From an uncultured Bacteroidota bacterium (GTDB taxonomy: Bacteria > Bacteroidota > Bacteroidia > Flavobacteriales > Flavobacteriaceae), in assembly GCA_902593165.1 (NCBI GenBank), contig CACJHI010000001.1, positions 1-64,000 on the forward strand: 64,000 nucleotides of DNA, read 5' to 3'. The notes beneath the pieces were generated by a model, which saw nothing but the letters and a program-made list of their open reading frames with translations, made no database searches and had not been told where the DNA came from. A program made the position numbers and the translations under genes. Of this stretch, positions 2,165 to 27,640 are shown in pieces. Position 1 is the first letter of the stretch. Each line of letters opens with the position of its first letter.

Positions 2165-2425
2165 ATGGCACATAAAAAAGGAGTTGGTAGTTCAAAAAAT
2201 GGTAGAGAATCTGAGTCGAAACGACTTGGTGTTAAAATATTTGGTGGACAATTTGCTAAGGCTGGTAATATAATTGTAAGGCAGAGAGGGACTGTCCATA
2301 ACCCTGGAGAAAACGTTTACCTTGGAAAGGATCACACACTTCATGCTAAAATTGATGGTATTGTTACGTTCAAAAAGAAGTCAAACAATAAATCTTTTGT
2401 CTCAATAGAGCCAGTTAAGGCTTAA
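2165..2425 (+). CDS. rpmA: 50S ribosomal protein L27
   Basis: This 86-residue protein starts [24 protein letters not shown], the hallmark of L27, whose N-terminal arm reaches the peptidyl transferase centre. The length is normal. The N terminus is the direct AHKK form, with no Firmicutes-type cleavable extension. It is co-transcribed with rplU. Its TAA stop shares a TTAA palindrome with the stop of convergent ahcY, a 4-bp overlap. Confidence 0.98.
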
Positions 2426-3744
2426 TATCTATAATATTCTGGTTTGTATGGTCCATTAACCTGGACACCAATATATTTAGCTTGATCTTCTGATAAGTCC
2501 TCAAGTTCTACTCCAAGTTTATCTAAATGAAGCTTAGCAACCATTTCGTCTAAGTTCTTAGGTAGCATGTAAACTTTGTTTTCATAGCTTTTAGAGTTAC
2601 TCCATAACTCTATTTGAGCAAGCACTTGGTTTGTAAAAGAGTTACTCATTACAAAGCTTGGATGTCCTGTAGCACAACCTAAATTTACAAGCCTACCCTC
2701 AGCCAATATTATTATTTCTTTATCCTTATTTATCCTGTATGAATCAACTTGAGGTTTAATTGTAGTCTTATTATCACCAAAGTTAGATTCCAACCAATTC
2801 ATGTCTATTTCATTATCAAAATGTCCTATGTTACAGACTATGGTTTTATCTTTCATCTTCATAAAAGAATTTTGATTAACAATATCTTTATTACCTGTAG
2901 CAGTCACAACAATATCTGCATTTGCAACTACATTTTCCAGTCTTTTAACTTCAAATCCATCCATCGATGCCTGAAGTGCACAAATTGGATCTATCTCGGT
3001 AACTGTAACTATTGATCCAGCTCCCCTAAAGGATGCAGCAGTTCCTTTTCCAACATCTCCATATCCACATACAACTACTTTTTTCCCAGCAAGCATGATA
3101 TCAGTTGCTCTTCTAACAGCATCTACTGCACTTTCTTTACAACCATACTTGTTATCAAATTTAGATTTTGTGACAGAATCATTCACATTAATAGCAGGCA
3201 TGGGTAGTGTACCATTTTTCATTCTATCATATAATCTATGAACACCAGTAGTAGTTTCTTCTGAAAGTCCTTTAATACCTGCCACAAGTTCTGGATAATC
3301 ATCTAAAACCATATTAGTTAAATCACCACCATCGTCTAAAATCAGATTAAGTGGCTTCTTTTCTTCTCCAAAAAATAATGTCTGTTCTATACACCAGTTA
3401 AATTCTTCTTCTGTCATTCCCTTCCATGCATAGACAGGTATGCCATTGGCAGCAACTGCAGCAGCAGCATGATCTTGAGTTGAGAAAATATTACAAGAAC
3501 TCCATGTTACTTCTGCACCTAGATCAACAAGTGTTTCAATAAGTACAGCTGTCTGAATTGTCATATGAAGACAACCTGCAATTCTAGCATCTTTAAGTGG
3601 TTTGTCTTTTTTAAACTTTTTTCTTAAAGCCATAAGACCAGGCATTTCAGCCTCAGCTAGCTTAATCTCTTTTCTTCCCCATTCTGCAAGAGAAATATCT
3701 TTAACTTTATATGCAGTATATTTATTATCAGTCTTATTCTTCAT
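2422..3744 (-). CDS. ahcY: Adenosylhomocysteinase (SAH hydrolase)
   Basis: The 440-residue protein shows the S-adenosylhomocysteine hydrolase signatures: [15 protein letters not shown] near residue 82, the NAD-binding [15 protein letters not shown] around 225, GHFDNEID, and the C-terminal [19 protein letters not shown]...YKPEYYRY. It cleaves SAH to adenosine and homocysteine, removing the product inhibitor of methyltransferases in the cytoplasm. The gene has its own strong Bacteroidetes promoter and is convergent with rpmA. No SAH riboswitch is visible in the 47-bp upstream gap. Confidence 0.97.
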
Positions 3745-3760
3745 AATTATATTTATGATG

Positions 3761-3792
3761 CAAAAATAAACTTAAAAATCAATTATATCAAA
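3761..3792 (-). promoter_or_regulatory. Bacteroidetes-type promoter for ahcY
   Basis: On the minus strand TTTG (complement of 3789-3792) is followed after 20 nt by TATTTTTG (complement of 3761-3768), a full match to TTTG-N19/20-TAnnTTTG. The -33 box includes the first base of the divergent 3792 gene's start codon, so the two transcripts start very close together. Confidence 0.7.
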
Positions 3793-4406
3793 TGCCATTT
3801 CTTAAAGATTTCATAATAAATCAGAATACAAAAATTAAGTTATGGGAGGTTCATCTAGGTGAACTGAATTACCAAGGTTTAGATGAGCATGATACTGACC
3901 TTATAAAATTGAAGAAAAATGACCTAGCTAAAGAACAATTTTTGGCTGTAAGGAAGACCTTAGAACTTGAGAACCCAAATTTTAAAATAAGATATGATAA
4001 AACAGGGATGCCCTCAATTAACTCAGATTTAAATATATCAATATCACATTCAAACTTTATGGCAGCTGTTGTTTTTTCAAGTATAAGTAAAACAGGTATT
4101 GATATTGAGCTAAAAGACACTAAAATTGTCAATATTAAAGATAAGTTTCTCAATGAATCTGAAAAGCTAAATGCTGAATATGAAACTAATATTGATTATT
4201 TAACAAAGATATGGACGGCAAAGGAATCTATCTACAAGGCACTTGGAATAAAGGGTATTTCTTTCTCGGACAATATTATAATTAAAAAATTATCAAATAA
4301 TAGAGGCATAGGACATTATATAAACGGAAAAGAAAATGATAAATTTGATTTGATTTTTTTTTCAATAGATGATTATATCCTTTGTTATGCTCAATCAAAC
4401 AATTAA
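3792..4406 (+). CDS. 4'-phosphopantetheinyl transferase (Sfp-like)
   Basis: The 204-residue protein contains ISISHS (82-87), GIDIE (102-106) with the Mg-binding Asp104/Glu106, and WTAKES (141-146). This is the diagnostic set of the Sfp/AcpT phosphopantetheinyl transferase superfamily. It transfers the CoA phosphopantetheine arm to carrier-protein serines, probably fatty-acid ACP. No polyketide or NRPS genes occur in the window, so a housekeeping or accessory ACP target is inferred. It is the first gene of a tightly packed run with the PnuC-like transporter. Confidence 0.88.
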   Translation: MPFLKDFIINQNTKIKLWEVHLGELNYQGLDEHDTDLIKLKKNDLAKEQFLAVRKTLELENPNFKIRYDKTGMPSINSDLNISISHSNFMAAVVFSSISKTGIDIELKDTKIVNIKDKFLNESEKLNAEYETNIDYLTKIWTAKESIYKALGIKGISFSDNIIIKKLSNNRGIGHYINGKENDKFDLIFFSIDDYILCYAQSNN

Positions 4407-4408
4407 TT

Positions 4409-5035
4409 ATGAGTGATATAATTGATTTTTTATTTTCTCAGTACTCAACTTATTCAGATACATTTATTTTTCTTGAAATTTTTGCAGTAGGAATGAACAT
4501 TATTAGCGTTGTATATGCAAAACAAAATAATATTTTGGTATATCCAACAGGACTTATTGGAACAGGAATATTTGTTTATATACTTTTTAATTTCTCTCTT
4601 TTAGGTGATATGATAATTAATGGATACTTCTTTATCATGTCCATCTATGGATGGTATTATTGGTCAAGAAAAAAGGATGAAGTATTTATAAATAATGTTT
4701 CTAGACTTGAAAAAAGGGAATATATACAATTAATCTTTTTAGCTGTAGGAAGCCTTCTTTTCATCTATTTTATATACGTTCAGTTTGATAAATGGAACAG
4801 TTGGACAGCATATGTTGATAATATAACCACTGCTATTTTCTTTGTTGCTATGTGGTTAATGGCTAAGAGGAAAGTTGAAAGTTGGATATTCTGGATTATA
4901 GGAGATTTAATAACAGTTCCTCTTTATTTCTATAAAGGATTGACAATTTCCTCACTTCAGTATATTATTTTTACAGTGTTAGCAATATTAGGCTACATAT
5001 CATGGAAAAAAATCTTACTCAAAACGAATCATTAA
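4409..5035 (+). CDS. pnuC: PnuC-family vitamin-precursor transporter (NMN/nicotinamide riboside, or thiamine-type PnuT)
   Basis: A polytopic protein of about 208 residues with the PnuC family blocks IMSIYGWYYWSRKK and the C-terminal TTAIFFVAMWLMAKRKVESW...GDLITVPLYFYKGL. PnuC proteins are inner-membrane facilitators whose substrate is trapped by a downstream kinase. I chose ATG 4409 (MSDIIDFLF), because the track start at 4382 lies inside the upstream gene and adds nine residues unlike the family. It overlaps the next gene by 34 bp. Family members linked to TPP riboswitches (PnuT) carry thiamine. The riboswitch-controlled receptor downstream makes that substrate plausible here, but sequence alone does not decide. 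Confidence 0.85.
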   Translation: MSDIIDFLFSQYSTYSDTFIFLEIFAVGMNIISVVYAKQNNILVYPTGLIGTGIFVYILFNFSLLGDMIINGYFFIMSIYGWYYWSRKKDEVFINNVSRLEKREYIQLIFLAVGSLLFIYFIYVQFDKWNSWTAYVDNITTAIFFVAMWLMAKRKVESWIFWIIGDLITVPLYFYKGLTISSLQYIIFTVLAILGYISWKKILLKTNH

Positions 5036-5571
5036 TTAAGAGGGTTGTTATTTGTGGTCCTGAATCAACAGGTAAGTCAACTTTGACAGTAAAACTTGCA
5101 TCCTATTTTAAGACTAACTACGTGAGTGAATATGCAAGAGATTATCTTCAAAGTAAATGGGATGATAAAAAAGAAGTATGTAATAAAGAAGATCTAATAA
5201 AGATAGCTAAAGGTCAAGTTGAAAGAGAAAACACTAATATTAACAATTCTAATAAATTACTATTTTGTGATACGAACATTTTAACAACTATTGCATGGTC
5301 AAAAACTCATTTTGATGGATTCTGTGATCCATGGCTTATTAAACAATCAAAATTATTAAAATATGACTATTACCTAATTCTTAATACAGATACTTCATGG
5401 ATAAGAGATGATTTAAGAGATAGACCAAATGATCGTAAAAAAATGTTTTCTGCTCATAAAGAGGAACTTAAGCTATGCCACGTAAAATTTGATATAATTA
5501 CCGGTTCAGATTTTGAAGAAAGATTTCAACAAGCCATAGATCTAATTAAAAAAAAAATTAACTTTGATTAA
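5002..5571 (+). CDS. NadR-like P-loop kinase (ribosylnicotinamide kinase-type domain)
   Basis: The 189-residue ATPase has Walker A GPESTGKST (19-27), SEYARDYL, the GQVERENT segment, a DTNILTT Walker-B-like strand and RPNDRK, as in the C-terminal kinase domain of NadR. The adenylyltransferase half of NadR is absent, and a separate nadD lies at 35340. It overlaps pnuC by 34 bp, so the two are translationally coupled. Known NadR domains phosphorylate nicotinamide riboside. Given the riboswitch neighbour, phosphorylation of another incoming vitamin such as thiamine is an alternative (inference). Confidence 0.75.
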   Translation: MEKNLTQNESLIKRVVICGPESTGKSTLTVKLASYFKTNYVSEYARDYLQSKWDDKKEVCNKEDLIKIAKGQVERENTNINNSNKLLFCDTNILTTIAWSKTHFDGFCDPWLIKQSKLLKYDYYLILNTDTSWIRDDLRDRPNDRKKMFSAHKEELKLCHVKFDIITGSDFEERFQQAIDLIKKKINFD

Positions 5572-5642
5572 AATTGGGGTGCTTAAAGTAAGCTGAGATT
5601 AAACCCATAGAACTTAGACAGGTAATACTGTGAAAGGAATTT
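5571..5642 (+). promoter_or_regulatory. TPP (thiamine pyrophosphate) riboswitch, THI element
   Basis: The segment contains the conserved THI-box parts in order: GGGGTGC (5576-5582), CTGAGA (5593-5598), ACCC (5603-5606), GAACTTA (5610-5616) and GGTAATACTGTG (5621-5632). A short P3 pairs GCTT with AAGC, P5 pairs ACAG with CTGT, and a closing P1 pairs AAATT (5571-5575) with AATTT (5638-5642). The 3' P1 arm borders the AAAGGA ribosome-binding sequence 7 nt before the receptor ATG, so translational control is likely. The 5' arm starts at the last base of the previous stop codon. Confidence 0.92.
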
Positions 5643-5645
5643 ATT

Positions 5646-7802
5646 ATGAAAAAATACTTCTTTTTTGTACTAATTAGTGCAAATATCTACTCACAAAATA
5701 TTCAAAATAATCAATTACTAGATTCAATTGCTGATATTGTTAATCTAGATGAAGTTACTGTAAACTCACTTAGAGCAAAGGATAACTCTCCAGTACCATT
5801 TGTAAATATTTCAAAAAAAGATCTAGAGAACACAAACTTAGCTCAAGACCTACCAACGCTTTTAAAGAACACACCATCAGTATTAACAACTTCTGACTCA
5901 GGCTCAGGTATTGGATACTCTTCAATAAGAGTAAGAGGCTCTGATCAATCAAGAGTTAATGTGACCATAAATGGAGTTCCATATAATGATTCAGAGTCAA
6001 TGAGTGTTTATTGGGTTAATTTACCAGATTTTGCATCTTCAATTGAAAGTATACAAATTCAAAGGGGAGTAGGTACATCAACAAATGGCTCTGCCGCTTT
6101 TGGTGGGAGTATAAATATTCAAACAAATGCAGCATCAGATGTTGCATTATTTGAAATAAATAATTCACTTGGCAGTTTTAACTCTGTAAAAAATTCTGTT
6201 AGTTTTTCAACTGGATTTATAAATGACAAATTTGAATTATCAGGAAGATTATCTAGAATTAAATCTGGAGGTTACATTGATAGATCTGGATCTAAACTTC
6301 GATCCTATTTTTTACAAGGGATCTACAAAGACTCAAATACTTTAATAAAATTATTGAATTTTGCAGGACATGAAATTACAGACCAGGCATGGTTTGGGAT
6401 TGATTCCTCTACTTTAGAATCAAATCGAAGATATAATCCAGCAGGAGAATACTATGATAAAAATGGAAATGTTTTGTATTATGATAATCAGGATGATAAT
6501 TATAAGCAAGATCATTATCAACTACATTGGAACCAAGACTATGAAAATGGATGGATTTCAAATTTTGGACTTCACTATACTTATGGTCGAGGATTTTTTG
6601 AAAATTATAATTTAGCTTTTGATAGCAACTCATCAGATAATATTGATAGAAGATGGTTAGATAATGATTTCTATGGTTTAATATTTAGCTTTAATAATGG
6701 CTCTGATGATTATAATGCAATAATTGGTGGATCATACAATAAGTATGAAGGGGAGCATTTTGGAGAATATTTGTGGAGTGCAGGTTCTAATCAATTAAGC
6801 AATTTTAAAGAAAGATTTTATAGTGATTATGGAAATAAGTCAGAACTTAATTTCTACGCAAAGCTTGATTATTATTTATCTAAAAACTTATCTATATATG
6901 GAGACGTTCAGTATAGAAATATAGATTACAATGCTAGTATTACTCCTTATTCTGTTATCTCAGGGTATGTTGAGCAGGGATATGACAAAATTGATAAAAA
7001 ATTTAATTTTTTTAATCCTAAAATTGGACTTAACTATAATCATAATGAAAATAATCAATTCTATATTTCTTATGCAAGAGCTCAAAGAGAACCAACTCGT
7101 GCAGATTATGCAAATGGAAGTCCAAACCCAGAAAAACTTGATGACTTTGAGTTAGGATGGCGAAGAAACTTTAATAGCTTCTCTATAAATTTAAATGCTT
7201 TTTATATGTTATATGATGACCAGTTAGTATTAACTGGTGAAAGAGATATTAATGGCTATGAAATCAGAACAAATGTTGGTGAATCATATAGATTAGGGCT
7301 AGAGATTGACACTAGATTATTCATCAATTCAAGTCTAGATATCGAGTCAAACCTTTCAATAAGTGAAAACAAAAACAAAAATTTATTTTTCAGTTTCGAC
7401 GGAGAGTTAAAGGACTATGGAAATACAGATATAGCCTACTCCCCTAAGTTTATCGCTAATAATATTATTAATTTTTACCCTAATGATAAAACCTCAGTCT
7501 CATTAAGATCTAATTACATAAGCGAACAGTTTTTTGCACAAACAAATTCTCCTATCTCTAAGTTGGATTCTTTCTTTACAAATGACTTAAATCTTTCACA
7601 TGAAATTTATTTAAATGATTTTGTTGATGAATTAAAAATTAAATTATTGATAAATAACATTTTTGACCTAGAATATACTAGTTACGGGGGGTATTACACA
7701 TATGATGTTCCAGAGGGAAATAGTTTAAAAACATATGAAGGAACTTATTATTATCCTCAATCTGGTATAAACCTTCTATTGGGTATAGATATTAAGTTTT
7801 AA
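5646..7802 (+). CDS. TonB-dependent outer-membrane receptor, probable thiamine transporter
   Basis: The 718-residue protein has a signal peptide (about 1-16, cut near YSQ), a TonB-box-like LDEVTVN (34-40), a plug with IRVRGSDQSRVNVTINGVPYND and IQRGVGTSTNGSAAFGGSINI, and a long beta-rich barrel. It ends with a C-terminal aromatic residue (GIDIKF), as needed for barrel insertion. It imports a small ligand across the outer membrane using TonB/ExbBD energy. A TPP riboswitch immediately upstream identifies the likely ligand as thiamine or a thiamine derivative. A hairpin terminator follows. Confidence 0.93.
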   Translation: MKKYFFFVLISANIYSQNIQNNQLLDSIADIVNLDEVTVNSLRAKDNSPVPFVNISKKDLENTNLAQDLPTLLKNTPSVLTTSDSGSGIGYSSIRVRGSDQSRVNVTINGVPYNDSESMSVYWVNLPDFASSIESIQIQRGVGTSTNGSAAFGGSINIQTNAASDVALFEINNSLGSFNSVKNSVSFSTGFINDKFELSGRLSRIKSGGYIDRSGSKLRSYFLQGIYKDSNTLIKLLNFAGHEITDQAWFGIDSSTLESNRRYNPAGEYYDKNGNVLYYDNQDDNYKQDHYQLHWNQDYENGWISNFGLHYTYGRGFFENYNLAFDSNSSDNIDRRWLDNDFYGLIFSFNNGSDDYNAIIGGSYNKYEGEHFGEYLWSAGSNQLSNFKERFYSDYGNKSELNFYAKLDYYLSKNLSIYGDVQYRNIDYNASITPYSVISGYVEQGYDKIDKKFNFFNPKIGLNYNHNENNQFYISYARAQREPTRADYANGSPNPEKLDDFELGWRRNFNSFSINLNAFYMLYDDQLVLTGERDINGYEIRTNVGESYRLGLEIDTRLFINSSLDIESNLSISENKNKNLFFSFDGELKDYGNTDIAYSPKFIANNIINFYPNDKTSVSLRSNYISEQFFAQTNSPISKLDSFFTNDLNLSHEIYLNDFVDELKIKLLINNIFDLEYTSYGGYYTYDVPEGNSLKTYEGTYYYPQSGINLLLGIDIKF

Positions 7803-7823: not shown

Positions 7824-7832
7824 TGTTACATG

Positions 7833-7854
7833 TCCCCTTTAATAGGGGATTTTT
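7833..7854 (+). terminator. Rho-independent terminator after the TonB receptor
   Basis: TCCCC (7833-7837) and GGGGA (7845-7849) form a 5-bp GC-rich stem with a 7-nt loop, followed directly by five T residues. In a sequence this AT-rich the stem stands out. It separates the riboswitch-controlled receptor from greA. Confidence 0.7.
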
Positions 7855-25671: not shown

Positions 25672-26487
25672 ATGGACCAAATAATTGAATATTTTTCAGG
25701 ATTAAACCCTGTAGTTGGTGCTTTATATGCTACTCTATTTACATGGGGAGTAACCGCTCTGGGAGCTTCAACAGTTTTTTTATTTAAAACAATGAGCAGA
25801 ATGGCCCTAGATGGAATGTTAGGATTTACAGGAGGCGTTATGGTTGCAGCTAGTTTTTGGAGTTTACTATTTCCTGCTATTGAAATGAGTGCAGGAGAAG
25901 GATTTATAAAAGTTATGCCTGCAGCTATCGGTTTTGGTTTAGGTGCATTATTTATATTTGGAATTGATAAAGTTCTACCTCACATTCACATAAATTTTAA
26001 AGAGCCAGAGGGAATTAAGACTCCATGGAGACGAACAACTCTTCTCACACTTGCAGTAACTCTCCACAATATTCCAGAAGGTCTTGCAGTAGGAGTATTG
26101 TTTGGTGGAGTAGCAGCTGGTATTCCAGAAGCATCAATTGCAGGAGCTGTTGTATTAGCATTTGGAATTGGACTTCAAAATTTCCCAGAGGGGATTGCTG
26201 TAGCAATGCCTCTAAGAAGATCAGGATTAAGTAAACGAAAAAGTTTTTGGTATGGACAATTATCTGCAATTGTTGAGCCCATAGCAGGAGTTATTGGTGC
26301 ACTTGCCGTTACCTTTTTTACACCCATACTTCCATATGCTTTAGCATTTGCTGCAGGAGCGATGATTTTTGTTGTTGTAGAAGAAGTAATTCCAGAGACT
26401 CAATTAGATAAATATACCGATATTGCAACTCTTGGTTTTATAGGTGGTTTTATAGTGATGATGACACTTGATGTAGCTTTGGGTTAA
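25672..26487 (+). CDS. ZIP family divalent metal transporter
   Basis: The 271-residue protein has about eight hydrophobic helices and the ZIP metal-site signatures HNIPEGLAVG (helix 4) and NFPEGIAVA (helix 5), with a His-containing loop (HIHINF). It is of the GufA/ZupT type and imports zinc or related divalent metals. No Zur-like operator is obvious in the 49-bp upstream gap. Its stop shares TTAA with convergent thiL. Confidence 0.93.
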   Translation: MDQIIEYFSGLNPVVGALYATLFTWGVTALGASTVFLFKTMSRMALDGMLGFTGGVMVAASFWSLLFPAIEMSAGEGFIKVMPAAIGFGLGALFIFGIDKVLPHIHINFKEPEGIKTPWRRTTLLTLAVTLHNIPEGLAVGVLFGGVAAGIPEASIAGAVVLAFGIGLQNFPEGIAVAMPLRRSGLSKRKSFWYGQLSAIVEPIAGVIGALAVTFFTPILPYALAFAAGAMIFVVVEEVIPETQLDKYTDIATLGFIGGFIVMMTLDVALG

Positions 26488-27536
26488 GCACTACTGCTAA
26501 AGGAATCCCAACCAGAACTATTAATATTAATCTTCTGACCTAAACTTGTGATCATACAATTATCATTCTTTTTATCTATGCAACTTCCTATAACTGATAG
26601 GTGCTGAGACTGTTCAATTTTTTTTAAATTTCTTTTTGAAGTAGTAAATAAAAGCTCATAATCCTCACCACCATTAAGTGAAGCTATGGAGTGATCAATT
26701 TTAAATTCATCACATATAGTTTTTGTATCATCGGATATTGGAATTTGGCTCTCATTTATATGAAATGATAAACCCGAAGACCTAGATAAATGGTTAATCT
26801 CAGTGGATAAACCATCACTTATATCAATCATAGAACTTGGAATAATTTTCAACTCATCTAGATAATTAATAACATCTATCCTCGCCTCAGGTTTTAACTG
26901 TCTTTGAATGCAGTAGGTATATTGACTTAAGTCAGGTTGAGAATTTGGGTTAACTTCAAATACATTCTTTTCTCTCTCTAAAACTTGAAGGCCCATGTAG
27001 GCTGCTCCTAAATCTCCAGATACTACTAGTAAGTCATCAACTCTAGCACCATTTCTTTCTATAATTTTTCTACTTTTTGTATTACCAATGCATGTAACGG
27101 ATATCATTAAACCTTTATTTGAAGATGTAGTATCGCCTCCAATTAGATCAATATTATAATTTGAACAAGCTAATTTGATTCCTTCGTATAATTCTTCAAG
27201 GGCATTTATTTTAAATCTGTTTGAAACTGCAATTGAGACCAAAATGTGTGAAGGCTTTACATTCATCGATATAATATCTGAAATGTTGACTACTACACTT
27301 TTATAACCTAAATGTTTGAGAGGTACATAAGATAAGTCAAAGTGGACGCCTTCTACCAAGATGTCTTGTGAGATGGTTACATTGGTTTTATCAAACTTTA
27401 ACAATGCAGCATCATCGCCAATATCGATAATTGTTGACTTATTACTATTCTTGAAAGATTTAGTAATTCTTTTTATTAGCTCAACTTCGCTAATATTAGA
27501 AAGATCATTTTCTTGTTGATTATTTGTATCATTCAT
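26484..27536 (-). CDS. thiL: Thiamine-monophosphate kinase
   Basis: The 350-residue protein has IDIGDDAALL (about 41-50), SQDILVEGVHFDLSYVPLKHLGYKSVVVNISDI, and later the VSGDLGAAYMGLQ, DISDGLSTEINHL and NGGEDYELLFT blocks of ThiL. It phosphorylates thiamine phosphate to the active cofactor TPP. It stands apart from the riboswitch-controlled uptake locus at 4409-7802 and no riboswitch precedes it. ThiL acts on thiamine monophosphate, so it would finish the route if imported thiamine is first phosphorylated. Confidence 0.95.
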   Translation of the reverse strand: MNDTNNQQENDLSNISEVELIKRITKSFKNSNKSTIIDIGDDAALLKFDKTNVTISQDILVEGVHFDLSYVPLKHLGYKSVVVNISDIISMNVKPSHILVSIAVSNRFKINALEELYEGIKLACSNYNIDLIGGDTTSSNKGLMISVTCIGNTKSRKIIERNGARVDDLLVVSGDLGAAYMGLQVLEREKNVFEVNPNSQPDLSQYTYCIQRQLKPEARIDVINYLDELKIIPSSMIDISDGLSTEINHLSRSSGLSFHINESQIPISDDTKTICDEFKIDHSIASLNGGEDYELLFTTSKRNLKKIEQSQHLSVIGSCIDKKNDNCMITSLGQKININSSGWDSFSSSA

Positions 27537-27640
27537 TATTCAAATTTAAGTCAAATGATCTGTTAAATTAGGGTGTAATTTCTAAGATAATTATAGATTT
27601 ATTAACACTTAAAAATATTTAAAAAACCTTGATTTAATTG

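Follow-up and report, generated by a model that had tools for sequence, protein, structure and literature searches.

A candidate locus for thiamine uptake and trapping

In the window (the whole stretch of DNA that was analysed, 64,000 nt), we confirmed a locus in which genes for a PnuC-family transporter and a lone NadR-type kinase precede a TonB receptor gene with a TPP riboswitch. Building on the aptamer, the gene identities, the conserved linkage and the pathway gaps, all of which were observed directly, we propose with a probability of about 70 % that the locus serves thiamine uptake and trapping. In this reading, the TonB receptor would carry thiamine through the outer membrane, the PnuC-family protein would equilibrate it across the inner membrane, and the lone kinase would trap it by phosphorylation to thiamine monophosphate (TMP), which ThiL, encoded away from the locus, would convert to TPP. 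TPP would also bind the aptamer just before the receptor start codon and so lower receptor synthesis. Somewhat less firmly, we consider it probable that the lone kinase is a new non-orthologous thiamine kinase, which together with ThiL replaces thiamine pyrophosphokinase (TPK) in most Flavobacteriales and part of Cytophagales, and that hundreds of enzymes and transporters named for nicotinamide riboside (NR) are misannotated.

Organisation of the locus

The pnuC, kinase and receptor genes are tightly packed head-to-tail on the plus strand. The pnuC ORF (4409-5035, +) starts 2 nt past the stop codon of an ORF of the 4'-phosphopantetheinyl transferase superfamily (3792-4406, +; Pfam ACPS, E 2.8e-9), which is a conserved neighbour of pnuC in relatives too; it is likely the first gene of the transcript and is probably functionally unrelated to the rest of the locus. 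The kinase ORF (5002-5571, +) shares its first 34 nt with the end of pnuC and has its stop codon (5569-5571) within the aptamer match (5565-5655, +), which extends into the start codon of the receptor ORF (5646-7802, +). The gapless, co-directional arrangement of transporter and kinase before the receptor, reported in a preliminary description of this DNA, is correct. A terminator-like hairpin with a T-rich tail (7832-7850, +) would close the transcript; four terminator-like sites were found in the region against 1.2 expected from shuffling.

The ThiL gene, encoding thiamine-monophosphate kinase and proposed to provide the last step to TPP, lies on the minus strand (frame bounds 26484-27539, profile match 26499-27488). 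Its product is a TIGR01379 equivalog (291.6 bits, cut-off 184.15), as the preliminary description had assumed for position 26484, and was also matched by E. coli ThiL with 112 bits. The source genome, 75 % complete and comprising 1.23 Mb on 28 contigs, shows one PnuC and one TPP riboswitch.

The TPP riboswitch and the receptor

The cmscan search placed the TPP model (RF00059) at 5565-5655 on the plus strand with 57.3 bits, above the gathering score of 54.3, and this was the sole Rfam match within the window. The conserved THI box is present, and the three riboswitch parts noticed earlier ahead of the receptor were all located within 5576-5628 (GGGGTGC at 5576-5582, CTGAGA at 5593-5598 and GGTAATAC at 5621-5628). 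Simple MFE folding of the aptamer stretch was no better than that of shuffles (z -0.17); the predicted riboswitch rests on the covariance model and homologues, not on MFE folding. As pnuC and the kinase gene lie upstream of the aptamer, they are outside its direct control, a caveat already raised from the gene order and in agreement with the coordinates. Direct control by the aptamer is limited to the receptor gene, and its mode is a prediction from sequence.

The receptor has the TonB plug and barrel domains (Pfam Plug and TonB_dep_Rec_b-barrel), and its orthologues come after the TPP riboswitch in relatives. A search by sequence returned no matching solved structure for it. We propose that it is an OMthi/Omr1-like receptor, the substrate of which is probably thiamine.

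The PnuC-family transporter

The PnuC protein matched Pfam NMN_transporter (E 1.6e-51, 175.2 bits, cut-off 27.3) and TIGR01528. In the PnuC tree it grouped with TPP-riboswitch-controlled PnuC proteins (support 100/97), while five NR references formed a separate group (support 92/94); NadR-linked, phage and E. coli PnuC proteins likewise fell elsewhere. The thiamine side of this tree is defined by TPP-riboswitch linkage, in a set without a biochemically proven PnuT. The AU tests of the separation from the NR transporters gave p 0.045 with one set and p 0.115-0.203 with two others, so that the apparent split has good branch support and marginal AU support. The earlier suspicion that the NR-transporter annotation may be wrong is in line with the position of the protein outside the NR references, at an AU support that is marginal or not significant. 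Inclusion in PnuT proper would have the gene itself under a TPP riboswitch, and here pnuC is located upstream of the only one in the genome. A scan of viral contigs with PnuC gave no matches. We regard the protein as a PnuT-like inner-membrane transporter with thiamine as its putative substrate.

The lone NadR-type kinase

The kinase (189 aa) has a P-loop kinase domain of the NadR type, resembling ribosylnicotinamide kinases (Pfam AAA_28, E 1.4e-36). It matched the NadR models (TIGR01526) only in their C-terminal kinase part, and a profile search found no NMNAT domain on 5002-5571. The AF2 model (pLDDT 93) has NadR 8x7f as its closest solved fold (TM 0.84, 31 % identity), which confirms the NadR-type fold and does not tell the substrate. 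Three NMNAT-fused kinase domains are interspersed with the lone kinases in the kinase tree, so the family also includes likely NR kinases. A residue signature separating the lone kinases from NadR was sought as well; the few differing columns divide the NadR set itself, because three of its members, those fused to NMNAT, look like the lone kinases. Plasmid matches to the kinase were NadR or AAA ATPases. From the linkage to the riboswitch and the complementarity with TPK described below, we infer that the kinase acts on thiamine, forming TMP.

Conserved linkage of the kinase and the riboswitch

All 46 loci with both the kinase and a TPP riboswitch, found in several families of Flavobacteriales and in some Cytophagales (including Hymenobacter and Pontibacter), have the two on the same strand with the riboswitch downstream, at gaps from -6 to 9085 nt, and with a receptor downstream of both on that strand. 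The gene order expected to be shared by flavobacterial homologues, kinase, TPP riboswitch and receptor, was thus recovered in 46/46 loci. In six genomes pnuC is elsewhere and the kinase gene still abuts the riboswitch. Genome G040 shows the order TPP-TonB-PnuC-TPK, with TPK occupying the place of the kinase, and three genomes (0.6 Mb) have kept the orthologous pnuC and TPK and are without the kinase, ThiL and ThiC.

Gaps in the thiamine pathway

The main comparison comprised 84 relatives at least 90 % complete. TPK was present in 0/68 kinase-positive and 11/16 kinase-negative genomes, counts that lack phylogenetic independence. Both TPK and ThiE are missing from 58 of the 84 relatives; the kinase is encoded in 57 of them and ThiL in 54. 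The single exception is a 0.3 Mb genome without the kinase, ThiL and PnuC, and apart from it every kinase-negative genome carries TPK or ThiE. TPK (PF04263) had no match in the source genome (75 % complete) or in the listed members of its genus.

In an even sample of the phylum (class or nearer), TPK was found in 23/86 kinase-positive versus 19/20 kinase-negative genomes among those listed, and without the Flavobacterium-like genus g78 the figures were 3/66 and 14/15, respectively. Genus g78 has TPK in 25/25 genomes and the kinase also in 20 of them, which rules out strict mutual exclusion of the two enzymes. ThiL is also retained in genomes with TPK, for example G040.

One genome of the same genus as the source (G017, 1.23 Mb, 87 % complete) was read entirely. 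It encodes ThiL and a TPP-dependent SucA, and homology searches found no E. coli-like ThiC, D, E, F, G, H, K or M. Since ThiL persists in genomes with neither ThiE nor TPK, TMP needs another source. The preliminary description had suggested that the locus imports and phosphorylates thiamine with ThiL finishing to TPP; the occurrence of the kinase in 57 of the 58 genomes lacking TPK and ThiE supports this, with thiamine as the presumed substrate of the kinase.

Alternative explanations

The PnuC protein and the kinase could instead form an NR salvage pair that merely adjoins a separate TPP-controlled thiamine receptor, with NMN passing to NAD via PncC, NadD and NadE. The database names of both proteins, NadR as the closest solved fold and the NMNAT-fused relatives within the kinase tree all agree with it. 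Moreover, NadA is absent from 25/25 genomes of the genus, and G017, the one same-genus genome read for NAD genes, has NadD, NadE and PncC and no detectable NadA, NadC or PncB, so that salvage of NR to NAD is possible there. However, with G017 at 87 % completeness, PncB may be missing only from the assembly, and the kinase tracks the absence of NadA only weakly (24/68 versus 10/16, p 0.054). Salvage of NR also leaves unexplained why only genomes with TPK or ThiE have lost the kinase and why the kinase stays by the riboswitch when pnuC relocates, and it gives no origin of TMP for ThiL. Genome G025, finally, has a separate operon of TonB, PnuC and bifunctional NadR, with no TPP riboswitch, yet retains the lone kinase locus. 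We consider this explanation unlikely. Much the same low likelihood, if anything a little lower, applies to dual use, in which the transporter and kinase take both thiamine and NR and one locus feeds TPP and NAD in a streamlined genome. Dual use would join the thiamine evidence with the NAD precursor routes missing in G017 and with the kinship of the kinase to NR kinases, but no sequence feature at the locus indicates dual specificity, and the characterised Pnu transporters are described, in work cited by PMC7749635, as specific for one vitamin each.

The association of the kinase with DUF4301 raises a further possibility, that PnuC and the receptor carry thiamine and the kinase serves another pathway, for instance together with this nucleotidyltransferase-like protein. 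DUF4301 is fused to the kinase or encoded after it in many Flavobacteriaceae, in most of them as the very next gene, and its fold matches UDP-sugar pyrophosphorylases (model confidence only 71), which hints at a possible nucleotidyl step; the kinase is also kept beside TPK in g78. However, DUF4301 is absent from the source contig and from G017, it was not found adjoining the kinase in several families in which the kinase abuts the riboswitch, and a kinase of another pathway would leave TMP in 57 genomes without a known source. We regard this as very improbable.

Comparison with known systems

The thiamine reading has its closest parallel in the thiamine uptake system of Bacteroides, OMthi/Omr1-PnuT-Tnr3 (BT2390, BT2396-BT2397; PMC5613172), which likewise has a TonB receptor behind a TPP riboswitch, together with an inner-membrane transporter of the PnuC family and an enzyme dedicated to phosphorylation. 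In contrast to that system, our locus is without TPK (Tnr3) and has the NadR-type kinase in its place, ThiL would finish the conversion, and pnuC and the kinase gene lie upstream of the riboswitch, not under it. With PnuC and bifunctional NadR for NR, the locus shares the transporter family, the kinase fold and trapping by phosphorylation; it differs in the kinase without NMNAT, the position of PnuC outside the NR group and the linked TPP riboswitch. The proposed two-step phosphorylation, with ThiL second, resembles E. coli ThiK and ThiL (thiamine to TMP to TPP), although no ThiK homologue was found in G017 and the candidate for the first step is an enzyme with the NadR kinase fold.

The omr1 and pnuC genes of marine Bacteroidetes from the Baltic Sea have been treated as B1 uptake genes (PMC12442306); the part of that paper covered here uses pnuC as a vitamin B1 uptake marker and does not mention the kinase beside it. 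The OMthi-PnuT-Tnr3 system is already known, while in the part of the literature covered by our search there was no thiamine kinase of the NadR type and no report of a swap of the kinase for TPK.

Implications

Most sampled Flavobacteriales are without thiamine biosynthesis and TPK, which leaves an apparent gap at the enzyme activating imported vitamin B1, and one candidate gene, that of the lone NadR-type kinase, fits this gap. The comparisons suggest that the missing first step from imported vitamin B1 to its active form in many Flavobacteriales may be carried out by this kinase, the annotation of which points to vitamin B3. If true, a recurrent vitamin B3 annotation would be corrected, the predictions of vitamin B1 and B3 for ocean bacteria would change, and the nicotinamide riboside kinase fold would prove to be employed for thiamine.

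Organisation and conservation of the locus

After ahcY (2422-3744, minus strand), the plus strand carries a phosphopantetheinyl transferase gene (3792-4406), pnuC (4409-5035), the gene for a 189-aa NadR-type kinase without NMNAT domain (5002-5571), a TPP aptamer (5565-5655) and the TonB receptor gene (5646-7802), with a terminator-like hairpin 3′ of the receptor (7832-7850). Because the genes overlap or abut, they are likely expressed as a single transcript. Both the stop codon of the kinase and the start codon of the receptor fall inside the span of the aptamer match, and the TPP-bound aptamer could shut off the receptor start, leaving pnuC and the kinase unaffected.

The preliminary description proposed a thiamine uptake-and-trapping locus and asked whether flavobacterial homologues share its gene order. 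They do: the order from ahcY on the opposite strand to the receptor is common across Flavobacteriaceae, with insertions, and is partly kept in other families. The kinase and the TPP riboswitch are on the same strand, with the riboswitch downstream, in all 46 loci having both. Where pnuC is located elsewhere, as in families f8 and f14 and some members of f7, the kinase is still immediately 5′ of the riboswitch. Hymenobacter loci have pnuC, kinase, riboswitch and receptor; Pontibacter loci have the last three and no pnuC nearby. One genome, G041, retains the kinase but has nothing at the usual pnuC site; a PnuC from a different clade is encoded 3′ of its riboswitch-controlled receptor. The displaced, missing and replaced pnuC genes thus show the kinase to be tied more tightly to the thiamine receptor than to pnuC.

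Phylogeny of PnuC

Five nicotinamide riboside (NR) references went into the PnuC tree: the E. coli protein, two Bacteroidota proteins linked to NadR, and those of two Vibrio phages in which pnuC adjoins a gene for an NMN adenylyltransferase or a putative cytidylyltransferase. These formed a single group (support 92/94). The window PnuC, whose annotation as an NR transporter had been questioned, did not cluster firmly with them and was placed inside a 42-member group containing PnuC genes directly behind TPP riboswitches (100/97). Forcing its clade together with the NR group was rejected only marginally (p 0.045), and was not rejected in two earlier sequence sets (p 0.203 and 0.115). Raw identity was uninformative (28-32% to PnuC directly behind riboswitches versus 21-30% to NR references).

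Other PnuC contexts were also recovered. In L063, L064, L066 and L067, PnuC directly behind a TPP riboswitch is followed by a protein of ~340 aa resembling acyl-CoA dehydrogenases or flavin monooxygenases, and these PnuC form one clade (100/100). Another clade is linked to a 2OG-Fe(II) oxygenase (L072:7933-9290, L076:8321-9597, L077:6696-8083); in L076 both genes lie 3′ of a TPP-riboswitch-controlled receptor. The second PnuC of G057 (L071:6594-8055) adjoins a 5′-nucleotidase family gene, which suggests a nucleoside-type substrate.

Thiamine and NAD genes

The window's genome (1.23 Mb, 75% complete) contains one PnuC and one TPP riboswitch. ThiC, ThiE, TPK (thiamine pyrophosphokinase) and NadA had no match in it or in the members of its genus listed, the sole ThiE match within the genus (G006) being weak and under the cut-off. 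Each of the 25 genomes in the genus contains ThiL. Using E. coli-derived queries on the entire available sequence of one genome of this streamlined genus (G017, 87% complete; L181-L238, L243-L248), we detected ThiL, SucA, NadD, NadE and PncC, and did not detect ThiC, ThiD, ThiE, ThiF, ThiG, ThiH, ThiK, ThiM, NadA, NadC or PncB. The organism therefore requires TPP, has no known thiamine synthesis route and carries ThiL without a known source of thiamine monophosphate (TMP).

Among 84 relatives, each at least 90% complete, TPK was present in none of the 68 kinase-positive and in 11 of the 16 kinase-negative genomes (Fisher p 2e-10, which overstates the evidence as the genomes are related). The kinase-negative genomes represent ten genera in seven families; five of these genera have TPK, four have ThiE alone, and the last is that of G087. 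All of these genomes have TPK or ThiE except G087, which is 0.3 Mb in size and has neither ThiL nor PnuC. Where both TPK and ThiE are missing (58 genomes), the kinase occurs in 57 and ThiL in 54. When the phylum was sampled evenly (class or nearer), TPK was found in 19 of the 20 kinase-negative genomes listed, there being at least 20, versus 23 of 86 kinase-positive ones. The Flavobacterium-like genus g78, with TPK in 25/25 genomes and the kinase lost from five, accounts for 20 of these 23, which rules out strict mutual exclusion. Kinase loss is instead confined to genomes with another source of TMP or TPP.

Three genomes of 0.6 Mb, G098 (L079), G107 (L080) and G115, keep orthologous pnuC and TPK and have no kinase, ThiC or true ThiL; ThiL and the kinase are lost in the first two. 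G040 has a TPP riboswitch, TonB receptor, PnuC and TPK (confirmed by TIGR01378), an arrangement matching that known from gut Bacteroidetes (PMC5613172).

Substrate of the kinase and relation to known systems

The aptamer, gene identities, linkage and pathway gaps were shown here and fit a thiamine uptake-and-trapping route in which every substrate is inferred. The chief competing reading is use of NR, alone or alongside thiamine, and the lack of an obvious NAD precursor route in G017 (87% complete) speaks for it. The AlphaFold2 model of the kinase is confident (pLDDT 93), and the closest solved structures are NadR proteins, at 31% identity and with a TM-score of 0.84 on the query. Kinase sequence does not settle the substrate, because three NMNAT-fused kinases group with the lone ones. 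In G025, a TonB receptor, PnuC and a bifunctional NadR form an operon that has no TPP riboswitch, and a complete lone-kinase locus is found elsewhere, so this genome carries two separate systems. The operon (L069:7812-11426) is a candidate outer-membrane uptake system for NR or NMN.

In many Flavobacteriaceae a DUF4301 gene is directly 3′ of the kinase or fused to it (L151:8001-10115, L240:9266-11401, L148:2076-3632). Its predicted fold resembles UDP-sugar pyrophosphorylases (Foldseek E about 1e-9; moderate-confidence model, pLDDT 71), and this partner hints at a nucleotidyl step. In the species having it, the linkage weighs seriously against reading the kinase as a simple thiamine kinase; neither G017 nor the window's contig contains DUF4301.

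The plan of the thiamine route is given by the Bacteroides system (TPP riboswitch, TonB receptor, PnuT and Tnr3), and pnuC of marine Bacteroidetes has already been classed with B1 uptake genes (PMC12442306). Unlike the Bacteroides system, the window locus has a NadR-type kinase in place of TPK, with ThiL as the proposed second enzyme. Thiamine would pass from the receptor to PnuC, then to the NadR-type thiamine kinase and finally to ThiL. A literature search of partial coverage returned no report stating this replacement, and the use of a NadR-type kinase followed by ThiL instead of TPK seems to be new.
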